From Gemmataceae bacterium (GTDB lineage: Bacteria > Planctomycetota > Planctomycetia > Gemmatales > Gemmataceae): 64,000 nt of DNA. A program made the translations under genes and the position numbers. The stretch spans positions 1 through 64,000 of the forward strand of contig JAHBXO010000031.1 in the NCBI GenBank assembly GCA_019636445.1, given 5' to 3'. Positions 14,173-53,836 of this stretch are shown in pieces. Position 1 is the first letter of the stretch; every line of letters begins with the position of its first letter. The notes beneath the pieces were generated by a model, which ran no database searches, had not been told where the DNA came from, and was given only the letters and a program-made list of their open reading frames with translations.

Positions 14173-14250
14173 GACTTCCGAAGTCCGGCTTCGACTTCGG
14201 AAGTCCATGGCGCGCTCGACTTCCGAAGTCGAAGCCGGACTTCGGAAGTC
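14173..14250. repeat. 78-bp double palindrome, copy 1
   Basis: Two 33-nt arms (14173-14205 and 14218-14250) are perfect reverse complements around a 12-nt loop (14206-14217). Each arm contains two 13-mers, GACTTCCGAAGTC and GACTTCGGAAGTC, which are near-palindromes themselves, joined by CGGCTTC or GAAGCCG. A second copy with the same loop length lies at 51993-52070. It sits between the divergent starts at 14136 and 14338. It is not a CRISPR, as there are no spacers of regular kind. Confidence 0.95.
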
Positions 14251-51962: not shown

Positions 51963-51980
51963 CGCACTACGGACAATCGC
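51963..51980. repeat. 18-bp direct repeat, left copy
   Basis: CGCACTACGGACAATCGC occurs here and again at 52085-52102, flanking the palindrome at 51993-52070 at distances of 12 and 14 bp. It is either a boundary duplication of an inserted element or a paired binding site between two divergent genes. Confidence 0.9.
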
Positions 51981-51992
51981 AATCGAGATTTC

Positions 51993-52070
51993 GACTTCCG
52001 AAGTCCGGTTTCGACTTCGGAAGTCCCCCGAGCATTCGACTTCCGAAGTCGAAACCGGACTTCGGAAGTT
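51993..52070. repeat. 78-bp double palindrome, copy 2
   Basis: Same architecture as 14173-14250: 33-nt arms (51993-52025, 52038-52070), a 12-nt loop (52026-52037), four GACTTC(C/G)GAAGTC units. The inner joints are CGGTTTC and GAAACCG instead of CGGCTTC and GAAGCCG, a paired change that keeps the stem. Only the last base of the right arm is mismatched (GAAGTT). Confidence 0.95.
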
Positions 52071-52084
52071 GGTCTTCCCCATGA

Positions 52085-52102
52085 CGCACTACGGACAATC
52101 GC
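52085..52102. repeat. 18-bp direct repeat, right copy
   Basis: Exact copy of CGCACTACGGACAATCGC at 51963-51980. It lies 43 bp before the aminotransferase start codon, where a promoter or operator could also be. Confidence 0.9.
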
Positions 52103-52145: not shown

Positions 52146-53525
52146 ATGACGGTCATTCGACACGCCGACGAACCCGCCGCGAACGCCGAACGCGAATCGG
52201 TCATGCGGCTCGAACCACGAAGCCTGCGGACCTTCACGCCGACGCAGGCCGTCATCGCCAAAAGCGCCGGCACCTACCACTGGACGCCCGACGGCCGCCG
52301 TCTTTACGACTTCAGCTCCGGCGTACTCGTCTCGAACCTCGGCCACAACCCCACGCGCTGGACGTCACGTTTCTTAGACATGATGGGTTGGAATCAGGAG
52401 GCAGGAGGCAGGAGGCAGGAGGCAGGAGGTTACTTTCCGGCCGTCCCGATGACGGCCTACAACGCCATCACGCCGCTCGAAGCCGAGGCGAATCGGCGAC
52501 TCGTCGCCATGCTGAAGCGATGCCCCGGCGGGAACCGGCTCGAGAACGTGCTCTGGGCCGCGTCCGGCTCCGAGGCGATCCAGAAGGCGCTCTGGGCCGC
52601 GATGGCGCGGGATAAGACGCGCCCGATGATCCTCGCCACCCGCTTCGGCTTCCACGGCAAGAAAGGCCTCTCGTGCGCCGTCACCGGCAGCGAGACCGAC
52701 TCCGAGCGCGACCCGCGCGTGAAGTTCGTCTCCTTCCCGATGGCCGAGTGCCGCGACGTGTCGATGCGGAACGAGCCGTTCGACCCCACGCCGTATCGCA
52801 AGGAACTCGACGCCCTCTGGCAGCAGTACGGTGCGAAACTCGGCTGCCTCATCACTGAGCCGTATCTTGGCGGCGGAGGCTCGTACCACCCGCCGAAGGC
52901 GTACCTGCAAACGCTCCAACAATTCTGCCGAGAGAAGGACCTCGTCTTCATCCTCGACGAAGTGCAGGCGAACTTCGGCCGCACCGGCAAGATGTTCGCC
53001 TTCGAGGCCTACGGCCTCGAACCCGATCTCGTGGTGCTGGGCAAGGGCCTCGGCAACGGGGTGCCGGTCGCGGCGGTCGTGGGTCGAGCCGACATCTTCA
53101 ACGCGCTCGATTACGGCGAGACGTCCGACACCTGGAGCGCGAATCCGATCAGCTCCGCGGCCGTGCTGGCGACGATCGACGAGTTCGAGGCGCGGGACGT
53201 GCTGGGCGCGATGGCGGAACCCTCGCGGATCATCGAGGCCGGGCTCGTGCGGTTGAAGACGCTTCCGTTCGTGGGGGCCGTGCGCGGCGAAGCCGGCGGA
53301 ATGGTCTGGGGCGTCGAGTTTCAGGACCACGCTGGCAAGACCGGGCCGGAATGGGCGAACGCCTTCGTCCTCGCGGCGTATCGCGGGAATGGGAAGGACG
53401 GCGTGCACCTCCTTGGGCCGCTCTCGAAGAAAGTCGTGCGCGTCGCTCCGCCGCTCACCATCACCGTCGACGAGGCGAAACACTCGATGGATTTGCTCGA
53501 AAGCGTCGCGGCGGGGCTGGCATGA
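52146..53525 (+). CDS. Class III PLP-dependent aminotransferase with internal heptamer repeat
   Basis: A 459-residue fold-type I aminotransferase. Family blocks: YDFSSGVLVSNLGHNP, VLWAASGSEAIQKALWAAM, ITEPYLGGGGSY, FILDEVQANFGRTGKMFAFE (the Asp contacts the PLP pyridine N) and VVLGKGLGNGVPVAAVVG, whose Lys should carry PLP. It likely transfers an amino group between an omega-amine or amino acid and an oxo acid in the cytoplasm. Residues 82-97 (GWNQEAGGRRQEAGGY region) are encoded by five tandem CAGGAGG copies and look like an insertion in a loop between the N-terminal strand and the first helix of the large domain. The next gene overlaps its stop by ATGA. Confidence 0.92.
   Translation: MTVIRHADEPAANAERESVMRLEPRSLRTFTPTQAVIAKSAGTYHWTPDGRRLYDFSSGVLVSNLGHNPTRWTSRFLDMMGWNQEAGGRRQEAGGYFPAVPMTAYNAITPLEAEANRRLVAMLKRCPGGNRLENVLWAASGSEAIQKALWAAMARDKTRPMILATRFGFHGKKGLSCAVTGSETDSERDPRVKFVSFPMAECRDVSMRNEPFDPTPYRKELDALWQQYGAKLGCLITEPYLGGGGSYHPPKAYLQTLQQFCREKDLVFILDEVQANFGRTGKMFAFEAYGLEPDLVVLGKGLGNGVPVAAVVGRADIFNALDYGETSDTWSANPISSAAVLATIDEFEARDVLGAMAEPSRIIEAGLVRLKTLPFVGAVRGEAGGMVWGVEFQDHAGKTGPEWANAFVLAAYRGNGKDGVHLLGPLSKKVVRVAPPLTITVDEAKHSMDLLESVAAGLA
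52395..52429 (+). repeat. Five-copy heptanucleotide tandem repeat CAGGAGG
   Basis: Five perfect tandem copies of CAGGAGG lie inside the aminotransferase frame. Because 7 is not a multiple of 3, gain or loss of one or two copies shifts the frame; a change of three copies keeps it. Heptamer tandem repeats of this kind (STRR) are known from cyanobacteria. The repeat also contains GGAGG, a Shine-Dalgarno-like core. Confidence 0.97.
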
Positions 53526-53836
53526 CCGATCCGCTGCGGGAACTGATCGACACGGCGCTCGAACTGATGAACCATTCCTTCGCACCGCCCGGCGACGTCG
53601 CCGCGGCGCGATTGGAGTTTTACCACCAGTTCCGCAAGCTCTGGGACCGCGGCATCCCCGTCGGCATGGGTCTGGGCCATCTGGTCGTGAAGTCCGACGG
53701 GGATCGGCTGATCGTCGAACGGATCGCGGAGAGGGGCCAACCGGGCGAAACGCTTGCGGAGATTTCGTTCGCCGGGACAAGTCAGGGAAATCGCATCGCG
53801 GTCGCCCACGACGGCCGCCGCTGGCACATCTCGTAA
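53522..53836 (+). CDS. Hypothetical protein coupled to the aminotransferase
   Basis: A 104-residue protein whose ATG overlaps the preceding stop (ATGA), so it is translationally coupled. N-terminal helices (RELIDTALELMNHSFAPPGD, ARLEFYHQFRKLWDRG) are followed by a small beta sheet (GHLVVKSDGDRLIVERI; GNRIAVAHDGRRWHIS). No signal peptide, metal motif or known family. It may assist or regulate the aminotransferase. Confidence 0.7.
   Translation: MTDPLRELIDTALELMNHSFAPPGDVAAARLEFYHQFRKLWDRGIPVGMGLGHLVVKSDGDRLIVERIAERGQPGETLAEISFAGTSQGNRIAVAHDGRRWHIS

Follow-up and report, generated by a model that had tools for sequence, protein, structure and literature searches.

Does a perfect 7-bp tandem repeat inside the reading frame of a metabolic gene turn this gene on and off, or is it there for reasons that have little to do with the function of the gene? 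This question is raised by five CAGGAGG units in an aminotransferase gene of a Gemmataceae bacterium, which lie in a window of 64,000 nucleotides (the whole stretch of DNA that was analysed). A preliminary description, made from the letters of the window, had proposed that slipped-strand mispairing in this array could switch the enzyme, and with it the next gene.

The array and its reading frame

Direct reading of the sequence gives exactly five CAGGAGG units, head to tail on the forward strand and error-free over 35 bp (Table 1), in a coding frame that is open throughout, just as had been described. The encoded peptide, NQEAGGRRQEAGGY, was likewise read correctly, as retranslation confirmed. 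Within the window, this is the sole perfect array with at least three copies and at least 24 bp (unit length 4-12 bp). Twenty random sequences of 64 kb, simulated with a first-order Markov model, had a longest perfect period-7 stretch of 14-17 bp, compared to the 35 bp observed, which rules out a chance origin of the array. Since 7 equals 1 modulo 3 and the unit contains a stop codon in none of its six frames, every phase of the array reads as the same peptide, (QEAGGRR)n.

Table 1. Coordinates of the array, its neighbourhood and the heptamer arrays used for comparison (plain positions refer to the window; G000, the genome that contains the window; G001, its nearest relative; L numbers, other stretches of DNA)
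Feature	Position	Strand	Remarks
REP/BIME-like palindromic insertion upstream of the aminotransferase gene	51963..52102	.	between two 18-bp direct copies of CGCACTACGGACAATCGC
Class-III (PLP-dependent) aminotransferase, 459 aa	52146..53525	+	intact at 5 copies; PF00202
Fast-evolving loop segment, codons 72-104	52359..52457	+	51% nucleotide identity to G001
(CAGGAGG)5, perfect heptanucleotide tandem array	52395..52429	+	aminotransferase codons 84-95
Downstream 104-aa ORF	53522..53836	+	start overlaps the aminotransferase stop (ATGA, 53522-53525)
Dispersed heptamer element, examples	G000 L272 2107-2183, L281 1903-2036, L188 13895-13927; G001 L306 1997-2118		
Sites of joint unit change	L306 1997-2028 vs L281 1994-2036; L301 1996-2028 vs L154 19877-19920		

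The gene product matches PF00202 (E 4e-68, above the gathering score), its best solved relative is GabT (3r4t), and orthologues at E < 1e-160 are present in 44 of 59 related genomes. D271 and K300, the residues that bind the cofactor in this family, show no variation among 14 aligned sequences. The protein thus combines the PF00202 match with the invariant active-site lysine and aspartate of a class-III aminotransferase, and the invariance of both residues indicates that the five-unit state encodes a complete enzyme. A mis-called frame is ruled out, since the 459-aa frame aligns over its full length with the orthologues.

Translation of the gene with 0-11 units gave the full protein at 2, 5, 8 and 11 copies only. 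With four copies a stop follows residue 99 and with six copies residue 158, in both cases before K300. On translation, a change in copy number therefore alters the frame as it does at a contingency locus, and the arithmetic of the preliminary description, according to which a copy-number change shifts the frame unless it is a multiple of three, is correct. Such shifts end the enzyme ahead of its cofactor lysine.

A variable loop carries the array

Nucleotide identity to the nearest relative, G001, amounts to 97.2% for codons 1-71 and to 92.7% behind codon 104, but only to 51.2% for codons 72-104. This segment corresponds to a loop that is present in all 29 other orthologues aligned, between ...MGW and Y/F..A..(M/L)TAYNA, and that varies widely in length and sequence. 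The array is missing from all 29, and G001 has a different, non-repetitive sequence in its place; perfect 7-bp units beyond chance and absence from the orthologues are what is to be expected of a heptanucleotide SSR. An alignment to solved class-III aminotransferases revealed a loop 6-9 residues longer than that of GabT, and its position is probably on the protein surface. Judged by these alignments, the array occupies a fast-changing and apparently length-tolerant loop. The earlier reading of the encoded stretch as a loop is borne out by both the orthologues and the solved enzymes. The proposed alignment to orthologues found the repeat absent but the loop itself present, and the relatives encode different residues there, not the same residues by non-repetitive DNA.

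Period-7 arrays in the genome and the genus

We searched 864 kb of the genome (40 stretches with together 800 kb, and the window) for perfect arrays that comprise three or more units of 4-20 bp and extend over 20 bp or more. Fifteen of the 16 arrays in this census have period 7, with differing units, and the exception has period 8. The same bias is visible in self-matches of at least 13 nt, with 17 at lag 7, none at lags 4-6 and one at lag 8. Two arrays of the census type were found in each of the same-genus genomes G001 and G003, all of them with period 7, and none in 240 kb of G004, which belongs to another genus. The prevalent units are variants of GCGGAGT, GCGGAAT, TCGGAAT and CAGGAGT. The sequence (CGGARTG)3 occurs 90 times (overlapping matches included) in the genome studied here, 84 times in G001 and 10 times in G003, and is present in one of 37 other genomes. 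The period-7 bias characterizes this genome and genus and does not depend on the aminotransferase gene.

The genus has a dispersed heptamer element, in which an array of approximately 33 bp, made up of AGTGCGG or AATGCGG units, precedes GAAAACC or GAAAGAC. We counted 51 such arrays at about 40 places in this genome, and for 15 of them an inverted copy lies no more than 250 bp away, which gives potential hairpins.

About half of the arrays in the census are located in genes or at gene edges, as judged with a simple gene caller based on codon usage. In translation, heptamer arrays were found in frame in variable segments of several other proteins, namely PriA (SDSSHSALRTPHPA), a Tm-1-like protein, a RecD-like helicase (at the C-terminus) and, in G001, CarB. 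The arrays in PriA and CarB lie in a variable linker, and each is missing from the other of the two species. As an off state of PriA or CarB should be very costly, such arrays indicate that no gene-specific switch is needed to explain an array in frame, and that tolerance together with selection for the frame suffices. A serine/threonine kinase gene (L159 15954-16046) has two such in-frame arrays, one inverted relative to the other; they fall in a variable segment that separates the catalytic loop (KPSNILL) from the DFG motif (KVGDFGLAK).

Unit numbers between species

Fourteen heptamer arrays of G001 could be placed in the examined DNA of G000; three of them lie in one rearranged cluster and the other 11 were compared. 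The unit number is equal in both species at nine of the 11 sites, one of them in a coding frame, in a comparison that is biased towards shared arrays, since the G000 stretches were picked for having arrays, while the unit number was unselected beyond the minimum of three. The two remaining sites differ by six versus five units in one case and by absence of the array from G000 in the other (CarB). The compared arrays, which have units other than CAGGAGG, do not look like the product of free slippage on the time scale that separates these species.

At two orthologous sites all units changed together between the species while their number remained the same, once in a coding frame (AGTGCGG vs AATGCGG, and GCGGAAT vs GCGGAAC/GCGGAGT; Table 1). 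If the arrays are actively rewritten at a constant count, this would imply that array length is maintained through copying or conversion. The wider pattern, i.e. the nearly exclusive period 7, arrays of approximately 33 bp, the constant count and the joint unit change, is of greater interest than the one array in the aminotransferase gene.

CAGGAGG in other genomes and related systems

No second occurrence of CAGGAGGCAGGAGG was found in this genome with up to one mismatch allowed, so CAGGAGG as a dispersed unit of the genome is ruled out. Three CAGGAGG units were detected in just one of 59 relatives, G021. There, about 20 units directly follow the stop codon of a gene for a large protein (L031 1501-1643), and the array extends to the end of the stretch examined. 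Among 84,980 species genomes, five CAGGAGG units occur in at least 83 stretches. Cyanobacteria dominate among the matches listed, which also include Verrucomicrobia, Bacteroidota, Acidobacteria and others, and 75 of 84 arrays among these matches are intergenic according to the simple codon-usage gene caller. Within the same matches the frequency declines from 5 to 18 units, as expected for slippage. A literature search on a CAGGAGG repeat in planctomycetes found nothing.

Heptamers are reported to be the most over-represented class among the longer bacterial SSRs (PMC4692102, PMC4679880), and the CAGGAGG array belongs with the known heptanucleotide SSRs of bacteria. With GGGNATC of Xanthomonas and Nostoc (PMC4692102) and TAACTGA of Beggiatoaceae and cyanobacteria (PMC4679880) it shares the period of 7 and the short, perfect or nearly perfect arrays, as well as the genome-wide period-7 bias, the scattered taxonomy and the mostly intergenic position. 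In contrast to these, the CAGGAGG array is the only one of its unit in this genome and lies in a coding frame, and three of the GG-tract features of quadruplex-forming units are weaker in it (GG, not GGG). The Rickettsia palindromic elements (reviewed in PMC10969869) are likewise repetitive DNA that stands in frame in unrelated metabolic genes and is tolerated by the proteins; they are, however, dispersed palindromes of approximately 150 bp, whereas the CAGGAGG array is a solitary tandem of 35 bp without a palindrome.

Origin of the array and alternative explanations

We consider it likely that the array arose recently by expansion of a heptamer that is common in bacteria, and that it was kept due to a tolerant loop and an in-frame length. 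A heptanucleotide SSR would have expanded recently, by replication slippage or a similar process, at the surface-type loop of the aminotransferase. It could have survived because the loop tolerates changes in length and sequence and because five units (35 bp) preserve the frame. Two units are in frame as well, and the present five may have arisen from two by an in-frame gain of 21 bp. We thus infer slippage as the origin and tolerance as the reason for survival. Two observations speak against this account: CAGGAGG is an orphan unit in this genome with flanks unlike those of the main heptamer family, and the codons flanking the array have diverged too, a divergence that plain slippage leaves unexplained. 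The array would be a clean case of a longer-unit SSR that survives in a conserved gene through a tolerated place and a tolerated length, and a warning against taking every out-of-frame repeat for a switch.

The on/off switch of the preliminary description, a phase-variable (contingency) locus at which slipped-strand mispairing toggles the aminotransferase and the coupled 104-aa ORF, is a possible reading of the sequence but an improbable one. Beyond the frame arithmetic, with truncation at four and six copies, we see no feature that would speak for it, although the array lies within the first fifth of the gene and heptamer arrays do regulate hmw1A expression in Haemophilus influenzae (PMC8262952). 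However, the known phase-variable locus hmw1A/hmw2A, which also has a 7-bp tandem array at a gene, differs in several respects: the hmw1A array (ATCTTTC) is located in the promoter region, where it comprises approximately 11-24 units, shows variation within patients and regulates an adhesin (PMC8262952), and five copies are short by comparison. The target here is a gene of conserved metabolism and no surface structure, and no relative among the aligned orthologues has retained the array. Moreover, period-7 arrays occur all over the genome whatever the function of the gene, also in frame in housekeeping genes such as PriA and CarB, and their unit numbers are mostly constant between species, so that the switch is not supported. 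A further idea, which we regard as rather unlikely, is that the arrays of the genus, including those in coding frames, are actively rewritten at a constant count (about 4.7 units) by copying or conversion and that the CAGGAGG array results from the same process with another unit.

It is also unlikely, to about the same degree as the switch, that the array is a solo copy of the genus heptamer element (33 bp of GCGGAGT/GCGGAAT/TCGGAAT, then GAAAACC, often in inverted pairs) that was inserted into the gene. Period and genome are the same, 35 bp is close to the mode of 31-34 bp, and such arrays do occur inside genes. Yet the units differ, the CAGGAGG array has neither GAAAACC nor GAAAGAC at its 3' side and no inverted partner, and CAGGAGG arrays are found nowhere else in the genome. 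A role of the five Shine-Dalgarno-like AGGAGG cores, one in each unit, in slowing ribosomes or promoting internal initiation, by which the array would tune translation, is very unlikely. Between the array and the next in-frame ATG there are 19 nt, a spacing too long for normal translation initiation; a product starting there would be devoid of the N-terminal part, and the array is not conserved. The least probable of these explanations, with hardly any weight, is an assembly artefact or a mixed-strain consensus. The genome is indeed a 98-contig assembly, but the 35 bp are shorter than ordinary reads, lie inside a contig of 67 kb and leave the frame open, and an independent assembly shows similar arrays of the genus at orthologous sites.

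Neighbouring features

The ATGA overlap between the aminotransferase gene and the 104-aa ORF makes translational coupling, as claimed in the preliminary description, plausible from the arrangement of the two frames. Such coupling is not a conserved trait, since the overlap is retained in G001 but replaced by gaps of tens of bases in G002 and G003, and the ORF itself occurs in five of 41 genomes only, i.e. within the genus and in one other genome. A profile search with the 104-aa ORF gave no family match.

The REP/BIME-like insertion upstream of the aminotransferase gene is absent from G001. It is separate from the array and represents a second dispersed repeat at this gene. Its palindrome, GACTTCCGAAGTCCGGCTTCGACTTCGGAAGTC, occurs with an inverted copy both there and at 14173-14250, and 134 half-sites are present in the genome. 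The genome also contains eight matches to Y1_Tnp (PF01797), which are possible RAYT partners of this palindrome.
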